IMG/VR virus record: IMGVR_UViG_3300044695_004236
Location: 1 to 28,207 of that record
Strand: one strand, 5' to 3'
Source of the DNA: a virus
DNA: 28,207 nt
Position 1 is the stretch's first letter; each line of letters opens with the position of its first letter. The position numbers and the translations under genes were made by a program. The notes beneath the pieces were generated by a model. That model did no database searches, was not told where the DNA came from, and worked only from the letters and a program-made list of their open reading frames with translations. Positions 2,213 through 27,649 of the stretch are shown here, one piece after another.

Positions 2213-3572
<1,360 letters not shown>

Positions 3573-5941: not shown

Positions 5942-6307
5942 ATGGCCCCCACCCGCAAGCGCGCTCGCACCACTGCCGGTCAGTTTCAGGCTGACGACCC
6001 GGCCACCATCGAACGCAACGAGGCCTACATCGAAGACCTCCCGCTGAACGTCGACAGCCTGGCCGCCTTCATGACCCTGGAGCAGCCGGACTGCGCGCGC
6101 CTCCAGCAAGGCCTCGACCTCGCCACCCAGGCGGCCGCGGTCTACATCGGCCGGCCCATCACCGGCAACGAGCCGCACCCCATCCGCCACGGCATCCACA
6201 TGCTCGCCGCGCAGCTGCTCATCGCTGATCAGCTCGACAGCACCCCCCATGCCGCCAGCATCCCCGGCGTTGTGCGCTACCTCTGGAAAGCCAATGCTGG
6301 GCGTTAA
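5942..6307 (+). CDS. gp6-like head-tail connector (putative)
   Basis: A 121-residue protein. After a basic N-terminus (MAPTRKRARTT) it is largely helical: LDLATQAAAVYIGRPI, then PIRHGIHMLAAQLLIADQLD, and the ending GVVRYLW. This short all-helical layout, with a 'columns of Ala' helix and a final hydrophobic patch, matches the gp6-like connector family (Phage_connect_1), which forms a ring under the portal. Finding it after, rather than before, the terminator gene is unusual and leaves room for a tail-completion role. Its last 14 bases overlap gpV. Confidence 0.52.
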   Translation: MAPTRKRARTTAGQFQADDPATIERNEAYIEDLPLNVDSLAAFMTLEQPDCARLQQGLDLATQAAAVYIGRPITGNEPHPIRHGIHMLAAQLLIADQLDSTPHAASIPGVVRYLWKANAGR

Positions 6308-6842
6308 CCGCAGCGACCAGACCACCAGCGGCGTCGGCAGCGCAGAAGCAACCGACCATTCCCGCCGGCTGAACAACCTCGCCCGCTATGGCGTCGTCGC
6401 CGAGGTCGACTACACCGGCGAAACAGCAGGGTTCCCCGCCGTCCGCGTCGACATGCAAGACGGTGCGCTTCGCAGCGACTGGGTGCCATGGTTCACACCC
6501 CGCGCTGGCGCAGACGTGGTGTGGGATCCGCCAACAGTCGGCGAGGTGGTGATGCTCCTGGCCCCGTCCGGGGAGCTCGCCAACGGCGTCGCTATCCCAG
6601 GCATGTTCTCCGATGGCAACGCCAACGGCGACCGCGCAGCGCTCCATCGCCGCACCTACAGCGACGGCACCGTGGTCGAGCACGACAGCGACAACCACAC
6701 CCTCACGATCGACACCACGGCCAGCACCGGCAGCGTGGTGATCCGCACCGGCTCCGCCAGCATCGAGGCCAGCGGCGCCGTAACCGTCGAGGCCCAGGGG
6801 CAGGTAAGCATCACTGGCTCTGCCATCCACCTCAACCCCTGA
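6294..6842 (+). CDS. V: Baseplate spike protein gpV
   Basis: This 182-residue protein is the P2 gpV-type central spike that pierces the cell envelope. Residues ~30-115 form the OB-fold (ARYGVVAEVDYT, FPAVRVDMQDGALRSDWVPWF, PTVGEVVMLLAPSGELANGVAI), then YSDGTVVEHDSDNHTLTID leads into a short trimeric beta-helix of repeating strands to the end. P2 gpV ends in an iron-binding HxH apex; here the chain stops at HLNP without one, and a PAAR protein follows 2 bases later to serve as tip. ATG 6294 is preferred over upstream codons inside the connector gene because it gives the family N-terminus. Confidence 0.88.
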   Translation: MLGVNRSDQTTSGVGSAEATDHSRRLNNLARYGVVAEVDYTGETAGFPAVRVDMQDGALRSDWVPWFTPRAGADVVWDPPTVGEVVMLLAPSGELANGVAIPGMFSDGNANGDRAALHRRTYSDGTVVEHDSDNHTLTIDTTASTGSVVIRTGSASIEASGAVTVEAQGQVSITGSAIHLNP

Positions 6843-6844
6843 CC

Positions 6845-7102
6845 ATGGCCGACCTGATCCGCATCGGCGATTCAGGCTCCCATGGCGGCGCTGTCACCAC
6901 TGGCAGCCCCAACACCTTCTGCAACGGCATCGGCGTCGCGCGCGTGGGCGACACCTACAACTGCCCCATCCACGGGCCCAACCCGATCGTCACCGGCAGC
7001 CCCGACACCTTCACCAACAACCTCGCGGTCGCCAGAGTAGGAGACACCACCGCCTGCGGCGCCACCCTGCAGGCGGGCAGCCCCGACACGGAGGTGAACT
7101 GA
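6845..7102 (+). CDS. PAAR-domain spike tip protein
   Basis: An 85-residue protein covering one PAAR domain, the conical tip that sharpens phage and type VI spikes. Characteristic elements: IGDSGSHGG near the start, two VARVGDT strands, GSPNTF and GSPDTF turns, and CPIHG. H13, C40, H43 and C71 are well placed to bind one metal ion, probably zinc. No toxin or extension domain is attached. It starts 2 bases after gpV and overlaps gpW as TGATG, matching assembly order. Confidence 0.88.
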   Translation: MADLIRIGDSGSHGGAVTTGSPNTFCNGIGVARVGDTYNCPIHGPNPIVTGSPDTFTNNLAVARVGDTTACGATLQAGSPDTEVN

Positions 7103-21263: not shown

Positions 21264-23635
21264 TCGGCGGCGGCCCCCAAAAGATCACGGTCGAGATCGG
21301 CGGCAAGATCGCCGCCAGCCTCGGCGCATCACTGCGCACCGCGCAGATGCAGGTGTCGTCGTTCGGGCGGAACGTGAACCGCACGATGAACGACGCGGCG
21401 CTGGCCGGCCGCAAAGGTTTCAAGGGCATGTTCGACAACGCCCTGTGGCAGCAGGCTGCCGTCGGCGCGGCGGGCATCGGCGTGGCCCTCGGGGCAAGCA
21501 TCCGCCAGGCGGCCAGCTTCGAGCTCATCCTGAGCGACATCGGCAAGACCGCCAACATCGGCCAGTCGGAGCTCAAGGGCCTGTCCGGTGAGCTGCTACG
21601 CCTGAGCGGCCGCAACCTCACCAACCTCTCGCCGGAGAAGCTGGCGGCCGGCATCCAGGACCTGGTGGCCCAGGGCCTGGAGCTGAAGGATGCCGTCGCA
21701 TCAATGGAGTCCCTGGGCAAGGTGGCGACCGCCACCAACTCCGACCTGCTCGACGTCACCAAGACCGGCTTCCAGCTGCAGAACGCGCTGAAGATCCGAC
21801 CGACGGAGCTCAAGGCCACCTTCGATGCGCTGGCCTTCGCCGGCAAGCAGGGCGCCTTCGAGCTGCGGGACATGGCGCAGTTCATGCCCACCATCGCCGC
21901 CGCAGCCGGCAGCCTGGGCATCCAGGGCCAGAAGGGGGCTGTCTCCCTGGCCGCCATGATGCAGATGGTGCGGAAGGATGCGCCCGACGCTGGCCAGGCC
22001 GCCACCCGCCTCACCGACGCGATGCTGAAGCTCACCGCCCCCGACGCGGTGAAGCGCTTCTCCAAGTTCGGCGTGAACATTGAGCAGGTGCTGAACGACG
22101 CCAAGGCCAAGGGCATCAACCCGATGGAGGCCGCCCTCGATCAGCTGCAGAAGGTGACCGGCGGCGACGTCTTCAAGCTCTCCCAGATCTTCGGGGACAA
22201 GGAGGCCAAGCTGGCCCTGATGTCCCTGATGAAGTACCGGAAGGAGTACGAGCAGCTGAAGGCCGAAGCCGGCGGGGCTGCCGCGGCCGGCACCGTGGAC
22301 AAGGACTTTCAGCGCAGCCTGGCCACCTTCCAGGGCACGCTGACCAGCTTCCAGAACTCTGCCCAGCGGCTCGGCATCGCGGTCGGCAACGCCCTCCTGC
22401 CCCCGCTCACGCGCATGGCGGAGATCATCACGCCGATCGCCGAGGGGATCGGCAACTGGGCGGCCGCCAACCCAGGCCTGATGACCGGCGTCACCGTGAT
22501 CGCTGCGGGCCTGGCCGGCCTGGTGGTGGCGCTGCCGGTGATCGCCGGGGTGGTCTCCGCCATCGGCACGATCGGCACGGCCATCGGTGCGCTCACCGCT
22601 GCATTCCCCGTCCTGGCCGGCATCGGCACCGTGCTGGCCGTGGCCGCCGGCCCGATCACCCTGGTGGTCGCCGGCATCATCGGCATCGGTGCAGCCTTCA
22701 CCTTCGCCTACCACAAGGTTGAGTGGTTCCGCACCGGCGTGAACGCCATGGTGGCCGGCATCAGCGCCACCTTCACCAGCTTCATCAGCGTGCTGCAAGG
22801 CGGCTGGACCATGCTGGTCGGCGTCTTCACCGGCGACACCAAGAAGATCCAGGCTGGTTTTGGCCAGATGATCGCCGGCGTCCAGGGCATGTTCACCTCC
22901 TGGTACGGCTGGATGACCTCGCTGTTCCAGCGGCTGGTCAGCCAGCTCATCCAAGGGTTCGCACGCTTCGGGCCCGGCATCCTCGGGGTGATCGGCGGCG
23001 TGCCGATGATGATCATCAGCCTTTTCAACAGGGCCGGCATCGGCCAGCGGATCATCACCTCGATCATCGATGGGCTGAAGGCCCGGGCCGGCGCGCTGTT
23101 CTCCTGGGTCGGCGGCGCGGTCTCCCGCATCGGCTCGATGGTTGGCGGCGGCGGCGACGGTGGCGGTGGCGGCCAGAGCTCCGGCGGCGGGGGCCGAGTA
23201 GCAACGCCCCCTGGCCGGGCGATCGGCGGGCTCGTGCGCGCCGGCTTCCCCTACATCGTCGGGGAGCGCCGCCGTGAGCTGTTCGTGCCTGGCTTCGACG
23301 GAGCGATCATCCCTCGCATCGCACAACCCCTCACCGCTGGCGCGCTGGCGGCACTGATGAGCGCGCAGCCAGCCGCTGCTCAAGCCGTTGCGCCGTTTGC
23401 CCCCGCCATCAACCTGTCGCCGCAGCTCGCCGCTCCTGCGCAGGCCCCCGTCAACATCCAGGCTCCTGAGCGGGCGCCTGCTGTGCCGGCACGGCCCGCC
23501 ATCACCATCAACGCCCCGATCACCATCCATGCTGGCGGTGGTGACGCGATGGAGATCCGCCGGCAGGTGGATGATGCCCTCCAGGATCTGGTGCGGCAGA
23601 TGGAGTCCGCCTACCGCACTCTGCTCAACGACTGA
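21260..23635 (+). CDS. T: Tail tape measure protein (gpT)
   Basis: A 791-residue tape measure that sets tail length and helps DNA entry. Residues ~85-290 match the phage minor tail/TMP core (QAASFELILSDIGKTANIG, LTNLSPEKLAAGIQDLVAQGLELKDAVASMESLGKVATATN, FMPTIAAAAGSLG). Residues ~408-485 are hydrophobic, enough for two or three membrane-spanning helices. A Gly-rich linker near 635-650 precedes AIGGLVRAGFPYIVGERRRELFVPG, the usual TMP C-terminal motif, and an Ala/Pro-rich end. By comparison with P2 gpT (about 815 residues) the tail should be close to P2's length. The long open frame on the other strand is a GC shadow. Confidence 0.93.
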   Translation: MIGGGPQKITVEIGGKIAASLGASLRTAQMQVSSFGRNVNRTMNDAALAGRKGFKGMFDNALWQQAAVGAAGIGVALGASIRQAASFELILSDIGKTANIGQSELKGLSGELLRLSGRNLTNLSPEKLAAGIQDLVAQGLELKDAVASMESLGKVATATNSDLLDVTKTGFQLQNALKIRPTELKATFDALAFAGKQGAFELRDMAQFMPTIAAAAGSLGIQGQKGAVSLAAMMQMVRKDAPDAGQAATRLTDAMLKLTAPDAVKRFSKFGVNIEQVLNDAKAKGINPMEAALDQLQKVTGGDVFKLSQIFGDKEAKLALMSLMKYRKEYEQLKAEAGGAAAAGTVDKDFQRSLATFQGTLTSFQNSAQRLGIAVGNALLPPLTRMAEIITPIAEGIGNWAAANPGLMTGVTVIAAGLAGLVVALPVIAGVVSAIGTIGTAIGALTAAFPVLAGIGTVLAVAAGPITLVVAGIIGIGAAFTFAYHKVEWFRTGVNAMVAGISATFTSFISVLQGGWTMLVGVFTGDTKKIQAGFGQMIAGVQGMFTSWYGWMTSLFQRLVSQLIQGFARFGPGILGVIGGVPMMIISLFNRAGIGQRIITSIIDGLKARAGALFSWVGGAVSRIGSMVGGGGDGGGGGQSSGGGGRVATPPGRAIGGLVRAGFPYIVGERRRELFVPGFDGAIIPRIAQPLTAGALAALMSAQPAAAQAVAPFAPAINLSPQLAAPAQAPVNIQAPERAPAVPARPAITINAPITIHAGGGDAMEIRRQVDDALQDLVRQMESAYRTLLND

Positions 23636-23637
23636 CG

Positions 23638-24582
23638 ATGGCCCGCCCGATCTTCCAACTCGGATCATTCCAGTTCGATCTGGCGAACGGTGTCCCCCAG
23701 TCGCTCGACCGCACGGCCGACTACCGGTGGGAGACCCAGGACCGGCTGCTGCGTGATCCGGCCGTTCAGTTCCTCGGCCCGGGCAGCCAGGAGATCACCC
23801 TCGATGGCGTCCTGTTCCCCGGCTTCTCCGGCCGGCAGACCACCGTCGAAGCACTCCGCACCCTCGCCGCCCAGGGACAGCCGCAGATCCTCACCGATGG
23901 CCTGGGGCGCAACTACGGCAAGTGGGTGATCCGCCAGGTGCGCGAGGGCCTCTCCACCTTCGCCCCCGGCGGCGGCGCACGACAGATCACCTTCAACGTC
24001 TCCCTGCTGCGCTACGTCGACGACAATCCAGGCCAGGCCGCCAGCCCCCTCAGCTTCTCTCCGGTCGCACTGAGCAGCAGCACCACGACACTGGGCAGCG
24101 CCACTGCTGTAGCCGCTGCTGTCCCGGCATGGACCGGCAGCGCCAGCGCATTCGACGCAACAGGCTGGGCATTCAACCCCGCCAACTCCACAACGGCGCT
24201 GGCGGCGCGCAACGCTGGCTTCAGCCTGGCCCAGCTGGGCAACATCTCTCGCTCGGTGGTGAACGGCGATTATGTGGGCGCAGCGCTCAACGCCTTCGGC
24301 CTCAACGGCCTCACCACCACGCAGACCTCCACCTGGGCGCAGCTGGGCATCGCCGGCGCGCGGATGGTCGAGGCGATGGTGGATCGCCGCGGCCCTGCAG
24401 CGATGACCGTTGCGCTCGAGGCGCTCCGCCCCGCCACCGCCGCGCAGCTGCAGGCGATCGGCGGCGGGGCTCCCGGCGAGGCCGGCCTGTCCAACCTGAT
24501 CCGCGACGCCGCCACCATCGGCACCATGCTCAACGTGGATCCCTTCATCACCGGCATCGTCCAACAGCTCGTGCGGCCATGA
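23638..24582 (+). CDS. U: Tail protein gpU with C-terminal extension
   Basis: Residues 1-130 match P2 gpU: FQLGSFQFDLANGVPQSLDRTADYRWETQDRL, VQFLGPGSQEITLDGVLFP, then GLGRNYGKWVIRQV and RQITFNVSLLRYVDD. P2 gpU is about 159 residues; this protein has 314. The added ~180 residues are Ala/Ser/Thr-rich and then helical (WAQLGIAGARMVEAMVDRRGP...), ending FITGIVQQLVRP. In P2 gpU ends up at the tail, probably as a completion factor. Overlap with gpX is ATGA. The function of the extension is unknown. Confidence 0.85.
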   Translation: MARPIFQLGSFQFDLANGVPQSLDRTADYRWETQDRLLRDPAVQFLGPGSQEITLDGVLFPGFSGRQTTVEALRTLAAQGQPQILTDGLGRNYGKWVIRQVREGLSTFAPGGGARQITFNVSLLRYVDDNPGQAASPLSFSPVALSSSTTTLGSATAVAAAVPAWTGSASAFDATGWAFNPANSTTALAARNAGFSLAQLGNISRSVVNGDYVGAALNAFGLNGLTTTQTSTWAQLGIAGARMVEAMVDRRGPAAMTVALEALRPATAAQLQAIGGGAPGEAGLSNLIRDAATIGTMLNVDPFITGIVQQLVRP

Positions 24583-24791
24583 CCCAGACCTACGTCACCC
24601 GGCAGTTCGATGAGGTGGACGCGATCTGCCACGCCTACTACGGGCGCACGCAGCAGACCGTCGAGGCGGTGCTGCTCGTCAACCCGGGCCTGGCCGACAT
24701 GGCGCCGATCCTCCCCGAGGGCCTGGCCATCCTGCTGCCCGACATCCCAGAGCCCAGCGTGTCTGAGGTGGTAAGAATCTGGGATCCATGA
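24579..24791 (+). CDS. X: Tail protein gpX
   Basis: A 70-residue protein matching P2 gpX: a TYVTRQFDEVDAICHAYYGRT opening (gpX has DTLDAICVRYYGRT), VEAVLLVNPGLADMAPILPEGLAILLPD, and an acidic/aromatic end. It has a LysM-like layout. It starts on the ATG overlapping gpU's stop and its own stop overlaps gpD, both ATGA. The length is normal. Confidence 0.92.
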   Translation: MTQTYVTRQFDEVDAICHAYYGRTQQTVEAVLLVNPGLADMAPILPEGLAILLPDIPEPSVSEVVRIWDP

Positions 24792-26623
24792 CCACACCCG
24801 CATTCCGTGTCGTCGCGGACGGCACCGACATCACCGACAAGATCAAGGATCGCCTGCTCAGCCTGCGCATCACCGACCAGGCCGGCCAACAGAGCGACAG
24901 CCTGGAGATCGCCGTCGACGACCGGGAAAAGCGGATGCCCGCTCCACGCCACGGGGCATGGCTGCGCGTCTGGCTGGGGTACAGCGCAGCCGGCCAGGCA
25001 CCGTCCTACATGGGCGCATTCGCCGTCGATGAGGTGGACTTCAGCTGCGGCCCACGCTCGATGGTCATCAAGGCGACCGCTGCGCAGACCGCCCCTGAGT
25101 TGACGAAGGAAAGCCGCACGCAGAGCTGGAGCAACAAGACCCTCGGCCAGGTGGTGCAGGAGATCGCCAAGCGCAACGGCCTCCAGCCGGTGATCAACAA
25201 GCCGCTCAGCGACATCCAGATCAAGCACGAGGACCAGACCAACGAGACCGACCAGGCCTTCCTCACCCGCCTGGCGGAGAAGTACAAGGCCACCATCAAG
25301 CCGGCTGACGGCAAGCTGGTGGTGGTGGAGCGCGGCAAGGGCGCGGCCAGCCCGGTGCCCAACCCAACCGGCCGCGTCACCGCCGGCCAGGCCACCGCCC
25401 TCGCGCGCCAGGCCGGCTTCACCGGCAACGACGCGGTGATCATGGGAGCAATCGCCATGGCCGAGAGCAGCGGTAACGTGCGGGCGCTCAACAGCAAGCC
25501 CCCCGACCTGTCCTATGGCCTGTGGCAGATCAACATGATCGGCCGGCTGGGGCCCGAGCGCCGCGCCCAGCTGGGCCTGTCGAGCAACGAGCAGCTCTAC
25601 AACCCTGCCACCAACGCCAGGGCCGCGCGGGCGATCTGGCAGCAGCAGGGCTTCAACGCCTGGTCGGTCTACAAGAGCGGCGCTTACCGTCGCTACCTCA
25701 ACGCTGCGCAGCAGTCTGCCGGCGCTGTCGGCAGCATCGATGGCCTGCTGAAGGGGAGCTTCACGATCAAGGAGCAGGAGGTGAGCACCTGGCGCGCCAC
25801 CCTCAAGGGCCGCGGCGCATACGATGCCGTCACGACGAAGTGGCTGGACCGCGCCACCAACAAGGAGAAGACGCACACCGCCGGCCAGGCGAATGGCCAG
25901 CTGCCCACCTTCGAGGAGAAGCAGCTCTACAAGACGGAGGAGGAGGCAACGTCGGCGGCGGACAGCAAGCTCCAGTCGCTGCGCTCAGGTGAGGTGCGGG
26001 TGTCGATCACCATGCCCGGCCGGCCGGATCTGAACGCAGAGGGCAACATCACGCTGGAAGGGTTCAGGCCTGAGGTCGACGGCACATGGATCGCCAAGAC
26101 CATCACGCACGACCTGGGCCCCAGCGGCTACAGCACCTCGGTGGAGTGTGGCACCCAGGGCGATGAGAACGATGGGTGGGTCAACGGTGAGGGCAGCGGA
26201 GCGAACAACGGCAAGCCGGCAGGCGAGAAGGCCCGCCTGGTGTCGCAGGCGGCCGAGCGCGCGCGCGGGATGAACACCAAGGGCGGCCCGGATGGTGGCA
26301 ACAATGCTTGCCTGTTCGCCGTGAACAAGGTACTCAGGAGCGCTGGCATCACACCACCCTGGGGCAACAGCAACTACGTCCCTACCGCACGGAGCACACT
26401 GGCATCTGGCGCTGGCACGCTGCTGTCTGGCCCCGAGCCTGGCGCCATCGCAATCATGCGCGACAACGGCAGTCCCCCTTACCCTCACATCGGAATCGTC
26501 GGCAACGATGGCCGCACCATCATCAGCAACAGCTCCAGCCGGGGGACCTTCTCCTGGGCGGCCGGCGAGGGGAGCTACACCAGCACCTACGGGCGCACTC
26601 CCGAATACTGGCGGCTGAAGTAA
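24788..26623 (+). CDS. D: Baseplate hub gpD fused to two wall-hydrolase domains
   Basis: A 611-residue hub. Residues 1-185 and ~318-460 are the two halves of gpD (late control D): FRVVADGTDITDKIKDRLLSLRITD, APSYMGAFAVDEVDFSCGP, WSNKTLGQVVQEIAKRNGL, FLTRLAEKYKATI; then FTIKEQEVSTWRATLKGRGAYDAV, ITMPGRPDLNAEGNITLEGFR and GYSTSVECG. Between them (~197-305) lies a transglycosylase-like domain: GAIAMAESSGN with likely catalytic Glu226, SYGLWQIN (244-249) and WSVYKSGAYRRY. After 480 comes a cysteine-hydrolase domain of NlpC/P60 or CHAP type: NNACLFAVNKVL (C508), PGAIAIM and PHIGIVGN (H567). P2 gpD has about 390 residues and neither enzyme. The start overlaps gpX as ATGA. Confidence 0.88.
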   Translation: MTTPAFRVVADGTDITDKIKDRLLSLRITDQAGQQSDSLEIAVDDREKRMPAPRHGAWLRVWLGYSAAGQAPSYMGAFAVDEVDFSCGPRSMVIKATAAQTAPELTKESRTQSWSNKTLGQVVQEIAKRNGLQPVINKPLSDIQIKHEDQTNETDQAFLTRLAEKYKATIKPADGKLVVVERGKGAASPVPNPTGRVTAGQATALARQAGFTGNDAVIMGAIAMAESSGNVRALNSKPPDLSYGLWQINMIGRLGPERRAQLGLSSNEQLYNPATNARAARAIWQQQGFNAWSVYKSGAYRRYLNAAQQSAGAVGSIDGLLKGSFTIKEQEVSTWRATLKGRGAYDAVTTKWLDRATNKEKTHTAGQANGQLPTFEEKQLYKTEEEATSAADSKLQSLRSGEVRVSITMPGRPDLNAEGNITLEGFRPEVDGTWIAKTITHDLGPSGYSTSVECGTQGDENDGWVNGEGSGANNGKPAGEKARLVSQAAERARGMNTKGGPDGGNNACLFAVNKVLRSAGITPPWGNSNYVPTARSTLASGAGTLLSGPEPGAIAIMRDNGSPPYPHIGIVGNDGRTIISNSSSRGTFSWAAGEGSYTSTYGRTPEYWRLK

Positions 26624-26646: not shown

Positions 26647-26934
26647 ATGCCTGAGCACGAAGTCTCCCACGGGGACATCTACCACAAGCTCGGGGCCCTG
26701 GAGGGGAAGCTCGATGCTGTGATGGTCTCCGTCGCCGAGAAACGAACAGACCTGGCCGATGCCTTCAAGCGACTGGTTGAGGTCGAGAAGCGTGTCGCCC
26801 AAGGTGTAATCCTGGCAGTGGTGATCAGCTTCATTGCGCCGGTGATCTGGTCCGCAGTTGGCGCACGGCTACACTTTGCTGGACCACCGGCTGAGGTCAG
26901 CAGCCATGACCAACGACCCGGGACTGCTCCCTGA
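26647..26934 (+). CDS. Holin-like/XhlA-like membrane protein
   Basis: A 95-residue protein with an N-terminal coiled coil (HGDIYHKLGALEGKLDAVMVSV, then LADAFKRLVEVEKRV) and one hydrophobic segment at ~53-72 (GVILAVVISFIAPVIWSAV). This layout resembles XhlA/holin-associated proteins next to phage lysins. GAGG at 26636-26639, 7 bases before ATG 26647, favours this start; ATG 26629 is the alternative and would add 6 residues. Directly upstream of the C39-like gene, with a 29-base overlap, it fits a lysis module. A holin role is likely but unproven; a spanin or signalling anchor is possible. Confidence 0.68.
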   Translation: MPEHEVSHGDIYHKLGALEGKLDAVMVSVAEKRTDLADAFKRLVEVEKRVAQGVILAVVISFIAPVIWSAVGARLHFAGPPAEVSSHDQRPGTAP

Positions 26935-27649
26935 CATCGTTCCGTTCTTCGAGCACTGGAAGGGCCTGCCCCATCAGCGGGCCGGTGCTCAGCAGTTCTG
27001 GGAGGCGGTGCCCGCCAGCCTGAAGCGCCGCGACGCCAGCTGGTATCAGACCTGGCAGGGCGCCGGGAAGCAGGAGCAGCCGCGCACCCTCAGCAATCCG
27101 CTGCAGGTGCCCTACTACAGCCAGCGCGACTCCACCACCGCGCACGCCCTCCGGATGTGCTTCAGCAGCTCCTGCGCCATGCTGCTCGAGGCGCTCAAGA
27201 CCGGCACCCTCAAGGGGCCCAACGGTGATGACACCTACCTGGGCCGCGTGTTCCGCTACGGCGACACCACTGAGGCCCCGAACCAGATCAAGGCGCTGGC
27301 CCACTACGGCGTCACCGCCCACCTGAACCAGACCTGCACGCCGGCGGACGTGAAGGCCCAGATCGACAAGGGCATCCCCGTCCCCCTGGGCTGCATCCAC
27401 AAGGGCGGTCTCGGCAACCTCCACGGCGACGGGCACTGGCTGATCGCCATCGGCTACGACGCCACCAACTTCATCGTCCACGACCCGTTCGGCGAGATGG
27501 ACGTGCTGAATGGCGGCTACGTCAACAACTGGGGGGCCAGGCTGCGCTACTCGCTTCGCAACTTCTGCCGTCGCTGGGAGGTGGTGCCATCAGGCAACAG
27601 CTACCGCTACGCGCCCGGCAACGGCTGGGCCATCATCGCCACACGCTGA
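26906..27649 (+). CDS. C39-like cysteine peptidase (probable endolysin)
   Basis: A 247-residue protein with a papain-like C39 peptidase fold. Residues 66-72 (LQVPYYSQ) start the domain; C85 in MCFSSSCAM is the likely nucleophile, H177 in GDGHWLIAIGYD the base and D193 in FIVHDPFGE the third member. The block QIKALAHYGVTAHLN and GIPVPLGCIHK fit between them. An extra N-terminal part (1-60) has aromatic residues and Lys/Arg. Lying behind a holin-like gene it probably cuts peptide cross-links at lysis. The GAGG at 26893-26896 supports ATG 26906. There is no signal peptide. Confidence 0.75.
   Translation: MTNDPGLLPDIVPFFEHWKGLPHQRAGAQQFWEAVPASLKRRDASWYQTWQGAGKQEQPRTLSNPLQVPYYSQRDSTTAHALRMCFSSSCAMLLEALKTGTLKGPNGDDTYLGRVFRYGDTTEAPNQIKALAHYGVTAHLNQTCTPADVKAQIDKGIPVPLGCIHKGGLGNLHGDGHWLIAIGYDATNFIVHDPFGEMDVLNGGYVNNWGARLRYSLRNFCRRWEVVPSGNSYRYAPGNGWAIIATR

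Follow-up and report, generated by a model that had tools for sequence, protein, structure and literature searches.

The hub gp15 of the Anabaena myophage A-1(L) (PDB 8KEA, GenBank OR360731) is reported to contain a lysozyme domain (residues 56–265), an endoglucanase domain (266–430) and a peptidase domain (736–899). In vitro, host cells were lysed by the endoglucanase domain and by the peptidase domain; exchanges of catalytic residues gave mutants with poor expression or significantly reduced activity (PMC10966104). In the 581-aa hub-hydrolase CD1368 of diffocin (PDB 8V3W), the hub is extended in the same chain by two enzymes arranged in tandem, a lytic transglycosylase (residues 338–458) and an NlpC/P60 endopeptidase (465–581). 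Its transglycosylase was likened to MltA, with a Tyr-Asp-Asp triad, its target is Gram-positive, and both enzymes are reported there as assigned from structure (PMC10996793). For the Herelleviridae hubs Deep-Blue Gp189 and Vp4 Gp110, the available sections of the report describe a C-terminal NlpC/P60 peptidase with measured lytic activity and mention no glycosidase insert (PMC11406892).

We analysed a viral sequence of 28,207 nucleotides (IMG/VR record IMGVR_UViG_3300044695_004236), termed the window below, in which a baseplate hub carries a glycosidase-type domain inside the hub and a cysteine peptidase-type domain at its C-terminus. The first-pass annotation of this sequence had regarded a gpD hub with both types of enzyme as an unfamiliar form. 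This view was given up: since A-1(L) gp15 and diffocin CD1368 have been published, the class is already known. The hub of the window differs from the described ones in the entry site of the glycosidase, the glycosidase family, the CHAP tail and the exchange of modules among close relatives. What is new here is the topology and the modularity, i.e. the insertion site and the exchange between close relatives.

The gpD-type hub and its gene neighbourhood

The hub ORF (24788–26623, plus strand) encodes 611 aa, in which Glu226, the motif GLWQIN (residues 244–249), Cys508 and His567 were found at the places named in the first-pass annotation. Pfam Phage_GPD scored 54.9 bits (curated cut-off 30.1), the PHROGs tail protein family phrog_52 matched with E 5.5e-105, and the four NCBIfam matches of the protein were all under cut-off. 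Together with P2 gpD, the pyocin R2 hub (6u5h, 329 residues) belongs to the same hub sequence family. It was matched in two stretches, by residues 3–188 and 377–455 (E 2.9e-47), which agrees with the earlier reading of a P2-type hub split by an insert. The N-terminal part (residues 1–188; 24788–25351, plus strand) corresponds to 6u5h residues 2–181 and gave Z 12.5 to this structure in VIA. Within the C-terminal part (residues ~325–458; 25760–26161, plus strand), residues 377–455 correspond to 6u5h residues 244–322, and the segment 25721–26170 alone matched Phage_GPD profile positions 194–301. The insert falls between 6u5h residues 181 and 244, and the tail domain has no counterpart there. A profile of 34 relatives, most of them without the insert, ran with its positions 3–321 along 6u5h residues 2–322 as one continuous alignment (E 3e-64). 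Because this profile covers 6u5h without a break, the two stretches represent one hub, as had been proposed; the full-length model itself reached only pLDDT 69 and pTM 0.45, with low confidence for the insert region in that context.

The top VIA match of the window hub was the A-1(L) hub (Z 13.7, 177 residues, rmsd 3.0, matched by the N-terminal part), which ranked 20th in Foldseek, and BLAST of the window hub against A-1(L) gp15 gave no meaningful similarity (best E 2.3). Both hubs, that of the window coming from a probable cyanophage, have extra domains within the chain and a C-terminal peptidase-type domain. Pfam assigned the second A-1(L) domain to DPBB_1 ('Lytic transglycolase') and the last to Peptidase_M23. 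Whereas the published extra domains of A-1(L) lie at residues 56–430, the glycosidase of the window enters near residue 190. Residues 1–186 of the window model align to A-1(L) hub residues 1–555, from which we infer that the A-1(L) domains would enter the fold well before the insertion site of the window. Seen alongside the A-1(L) and diffocin hubs, the window hub suggests repeated origins of dual-enzyme hubs, at differing sites of a shared fold.

The gene order is P2-like (Pfam, PHROGs), with the tape measure gene, a gpU-like tail protein gene (23638–24582, plus strand; Phage_P2_GpU E 1.6e-33) and then the hub, and with sheath and tube genes further upstream. A small LysM-like gene, recognized from its translation only, lies between gpU and the hub. 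The window also encodes W, J and I proteins, a short spike (6249–6842, recognized by PHROGs only) and a PAAR protein (within 6488–7102); no lysozyme was among the matches listed for the spike and the PAAR protein. A separate C39-like gene downstream of the hub (26858–27649, plus strand; Peptidase_C39_2 E 7.1e-10, phrog_10051 endolysin E 3.4e-59) is likely the lysis enzyme. With lysis covered in this way, the hub enzymes would be available for entry.

Three further observations concern the window as a whole. A small ORF between hub and endolysin (26647–26934), with one membrane-like stretch by eye and no PHROG match at E 0.001, is possibly a holin. An ORF with collagen-like triple-helix repeats (2493–3572) lies between the capsid and tail genes. 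An open frame of 655 aa antisense to the tape measure gene (21701–23668, minus strand) probably results from the GC-rich codon pattern. A search of the window for tRNAs found none.

The inserted glycosidase-type domain

The insert is a predicted lysozyme-superfamily (SLT_3) domain comprising residues 196–313 (25373–25726, plus strand). It is flanked by linkers (~25352–25372 and ~25727–25759, plus strand), so that domain and linkers together span residues ~189 to ~324. Pfam SLT_3 matched residues 204–293 with 67.5 bits (cut-off 27; E 1.5e-18), and the Pfam family SLT also exceeded its threshold, with 24.9 against 21.3. When the domain was modelled by itself from 39 sequences, it reached pLDDT 94.3, in line with the earlier expectation that it folds independently. 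Its best VIA match was 2fbd (Z 13.1, rmsd 2.9, 111 residues), and the best 50 VIA rows contained C-type lysozymes at Z 12.3–13.1, values near 13 that are not decisive for mostly helical models, in which chance matches come more easily. In Foldseek, 2fbd (E 7.8e-4) was the only match below 0.001 among those listed. Taking the best 50 matches of each program, all solved neighbours were c-type lysozymes or alpha-lactalbumins, and GH23 enzymes were absent from both sets, which does not exclude a GH23 relationship. A profile search with the insert likewise placed c-type lysozymes at the top (best 60 of 167 matches).

Residue conservation was counted in the 73 complete rows of an alignment of 82, window included. 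Glu226, the predicted catalytic acid (codon 25463–25465, plus strand), was conserved in all 23 aligned insert-bearing rows, and the corresponding domain position E31 in 39 of 39 SLT domains. Conservation of this degree, here and at the C-terminal residues described below, makes a chance occurrence of the motifs improbable. At what we take, by its motif, to be the place of hen lysozyme Asp52, the window has Ser242, which was serine in 23 of 23 insert-bearing rows; the nearby Asp240 was also invariant.

The insert is therefore best described as a predicted glycosidase that may be either a muramidase or a lytic transglycosylase. Since the nearest solved folds are C-type lysozymes, the name transglycosylase, used in the first-pass annotation, denotes one option only, and of that assignment the glycosidase type was retained. 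Whether the domain is a hydrolase (muramidase) rather than a lytic transglycosylase we regard as evenly balanced. The SLT score over cut-off and the serine at the presumed place of Asp52 argue for the transglycosylase. The lysozyme folds, the lysozyme-led profile search and the finding that the SLT domain of PrgK is a muramidase (PMC11323569) point to the hydrolase.

We also looked for related glycosidases on other carriers. Among the best 80 of 329 SLT relatives, 57 lay beyond the known hub contigs; 33 of these loci were examined and none matched the hub (0/33), several of their frames being cut by contig ends. Pfam was run on four of these loci and on two further CHAP loci. SLT_3 was combined with M15 in L104 and with M23 in L113, all over cut-off; L219 had a phage lysozyme domain ahead of a CHAP match below cut-off, and L218 had SLT and CHAP matches, both below cut-off. 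Pfam found no peptidase in L116 and L117, and no gpD hub domain in L219. These results indicate that proteins other than the hub, too, repeatedly combine a glycan cutter and a peptide cutter. A further candidate, the 'lysozyme C' of DSL-LC03, was set aside, as it came without a hub domain.

The C-terminal domain and its M23-like alternative

The C-terminal CHAP/NlpC-P60-type domain comprises residues 477–611 (26216–26620, plus strand). CHAP (PF05257) was not listed in the Pfam scan of the full-length protein at E up to 1; the C-terminal segment alone scored 22.7 bits, under the cut-off of 26, and the homologue in L062 scored 30.1 bits, over it. NCBIfam TIGR02594 gave 15.5 against a cut-off of 70.55, and a PDB profile search with the CHAP alignment returned eight matches (E 0.31–2.7), none of them a cell-wall enzyme. 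In VIA, the predicted fold of residues ~480–611 matched the NlpC/P60-type enzymes 7cfl (Z 10.7, 118 residues, rmsd 3.0), Tae3 (Z 9.9), CwlO (9.8) and Tse1 (9.5). A cysteine, a histidine and a third polar residue occur in the order of CHAP/NlpC-P60 enzymes. Among the rows with a CHAP domain, the predicted nucleophile Cys508 (codon 26309–26311) was conserved in 55 of 55 and the predicted base His567 (26486–26488) in 54 of 55; Asn581 (26528–26530; all on the plus strand), found in 55 of 55, is a candidate third member of a C-H-N triad. The fold matches and the conserved Cys/His pair uphold the earlier assignment as an NlpC/P60- or CHAP-like domain, with the CHAP score itself under cut-off in this protein. 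The only row without the histidine is L060:1606–2997, in which a gap removes the His stretch and leaves Cys and Asn in place; this hub is a candidate for a natural inactive form or an assembly error.

Part of the C-terminus (residues 478–541) matched phrog_34252, which is called an endolysin (E 8.8e-13), and the records of some Synechococcus phages give that name to related CHAP proteins as well. Both would fit hub enzymes that serve host lysis late in infection. We consider this very improbable: the enzymes are fused to a structural hub that follows the tape measure and gpU genes, the separate C39 endolysin comes after it, and the related CHAP of Synechococcus phage ACG-2014e lies on a gene amid baseplate genes. 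The ACG-2014e protein is the nearest relative of the window CHAP among phage records (44.5% identity) and is annotated as 'late control gene D protein' (L220:5690–8596). As a second instance of the same architecture it was rejected, no Pfam family being found at E up to 0.1; its gpD annotation may have been transferred via the shared enzyme domain.

Some relatives carry a different tail domain, here represented by L065:5003–5392, L021:3499–3879 and L077:4010–4399. In the last ~115 residues of these three proteins and their relatives, STGPHL(D/H) precedes YGPR, HxGIDFG and LLHL, and a PDB profile search matched M23 chains as two segments whose order is exchanged (for 6smk, query 56–88 to chain 10–42 and query 13–31 to chain 94–112). 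Rotated versions of the sequences aligned with higher scores. With the M23 domain of L113 they gave 98 instead of 62 (L077), 97 instead of 60 (L065) and 91 instead of 68 (L021), and with the M23 domain of A-1(L) 81 instead of 49, 67 instead of 44 and 70 instead of 48, respectively. Every rotated score exceeded its 300 shuffles, as did, less clearly, the unrotated scores against L113. The whole domain remained under the Pfam M23 cut-off, and Pfam found nothing in its C-terminal half alone (L065, L077). Stretches with the same motif order, 37% identical, occur in tail or tape measure proteins of at least three Acinetobacter phages. P2 gpD matched L065, which lacks the insert, at 31%.

Judged by motif order and rotated scores, this tail resembles an M23/LytM domain that has undergone circular permutation. 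The literature found on circular permutation, M23 peptidases and phages, as far as available, contained no description of such a form; the paper listed for that combination deals with the lipocone superfamily. The term 'permut' is absent from the available text of an M23 review (PMC9662197), and 'circularly permuted' in the accessible part of PMC6403190 refers to NlpC/P60 relatives. If the assignment is true, it would be a peptidase form without a description in that literature. Its activity is unsure, because where M23 enzymes have HxH, of which the second histidine is a zinc ligand (PMC9662197), 18 of the 19 motif-bearing loci have HLD and one has HLH.

Exchange of the enzyme modules and the proposed role of the hub

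From a scan of viral sequences we kept the best 80 of 92 relatives, which represent 79 distinct loci (L002–L080), and a pattern scan of genomes from 84,980 species added two close relatives (L081, L082). L002–L004 are 99–100% copies of the window. The insert and CHAP were called by tblastn (E up to 1e-3) and the M23-like tail by the GPHL motif. All four combinations of insert and tail were found among the 81 related loci: insert with CHAP in 19, insert with the M23-like tail in 4, CHAP without insert in 39 and the M23-like tail without insert in 15, one of these incomplete; the remaining 4 loci end before the tail. L025, at 88% identity to the window, shares its layout except for the missing insert.

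A hub tree was built from 82 rows including the window, reduced to 73 by dropping incomplete rows and to 41 by dropping near-copies. On the 41-row tree the insert needs six changes, and a tree with all insert-bearing hubs as one clade was rejected (p 5.8e-5); these results have to be read with the long branches of L061, L062, L018 and L053 in mind, and with the capacity of recombination to mimic repeated gain. The same test for the M23-like tail gave p 0.037, a weak result. L021 and L044 are 85–92% identical over the N half and 53–76% over the C half, with the switch at the insert; the fall from about 89% to about 65% across this site likely marks a recombination breakpoint. From the sequence comparisons, we read the insert as a module that moves, whether by repeated gain or by recombination.

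All dN/dS ratios computed, for each pair and each domain, stayed under 1 (maximum 0.80), showing purifying selection on the hub and the enzyme domains. Compared with the hub, the ratio was not raised for the insert in 27 of 28 pairs and for CHAP in 18 of 21. A recent spread of the insert on its own was considered and dismissed: of 28 pairs, 14 had lower synonymous divergence in SLT than in the hub and 14 did not, a split that does not show a sweep.

For 17 of the 81 loci, those with the longer records, the underlying sequences were searched for SLT. Each of the five insert-bearing virus records had one SLT match, in the hub frame. The idea that insert-less relatives carry SLT on another gene was not borne out in any of 11 virus records (0/11; the records may be incomplete), and the MAG behind L081 had one SLT match, on a different contig. 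PF18013 was over cut-off in 0 of the 17 records and under cut-off in one (G001). When 201 genomes around G001 were scanned across the family, two gave a match, namely G001 itself and G121, the latter with the C-terminal part only. Since many close relatives lack the insert and all 11 tested have no SLT match elsewhere, the glycosidase is not essential.

The absence of the insert from many relatives could also mean that only one of the two domains is an active enzyme, with the other serving for binding or regulation. A precedent is PrgK (SLT, LytM and CHAP), in which only the SLT domain is reported to be active, while CHAP and LytM down-regulate it (PMC11323569). The CHAP score under the Pfam cut-off fits this possibility, as does the reported activity of A-1(L), which concerns the endoglucanase and the peptidase and not the domain named lysozyme (PMC10966104). 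We nevertheless consider a single active domain unlikely in view of the conservation of Cys508, Asn581, His567 and Glu226 and of dN/dS ratios that are not raised over those of the hub in nearly all pairs.

Both genome-collection matches came from cyanobacterial assemblies, a Cyanobium MAG (L081) and a Synechococcaceae MAG. Inspected by eye, the L081 contig looks like phage only over its first 20 kb, with portal, terminase and recombination-like ORFs, so this contig may be a mis-binned phage. Among phage records, 21 of 30 insert relatives were cyanophages (17 of them near-identical Prochlorococcus phage strains), as were 10 of 10 relatives of the CHAP domain. The host is probably an aquatic (pico)cyanobacterium, a reading drawn from the MAG binning only.

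Taken together, we think it quite probable that the window encodes a contractile-tail baseplate hub that doubles as an entry lysin with glycan- and peptide-cutting domains, probably in a picocyanobacterial phage; the activity, the bonds, the timing and the host are what we infer. Hubs of this protein family assemble in threes into a ring connecting tail tube and spike, and the hub of the window would do the same. The loop near residue 190 would present the lysozyme-superfamily glycosidase, which, with Glu226 as the acid, would cut the sugar strands of peptidoglycan. The C-terminal domain, a predicted cysteine peptidase or amidase with Cys508, His567 and Asn581 as its triad, would attack the peptide bonds in the wall. 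Contraction of the sheath would drive the tube through the outer membrane, and both enzymes would then breach the wall locally so that tube and DNA can pass. The cutting of two bond types at injection, as put forward in the first-pass annotation, thus stands as a plausible purpose, with catalysis, the contact between Cys508 and His567 and cooperation of the domains as its conjectural part.

The distribution of the modules raises the prospect, to which we give even chances, that the hub is a chassis with two sockets: the loop near residue 190 would repeatedly gain or lose a lysozyme module, the tail would swap CHAP for a permuted M23 domain, and wall chemistry would be tuned independently of the hub. 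Close phages provide a natural two-by-two set that combines presence or absence of the glycosidase with either CHAP or the apparently permuted M23 domain. Within it, the layouts of the window and its 88% identical relative L025 differ by one clean domain insertion. Such a set would allow direct testing of whether a phage requires the cutting of one or of two wall bonds at entry.
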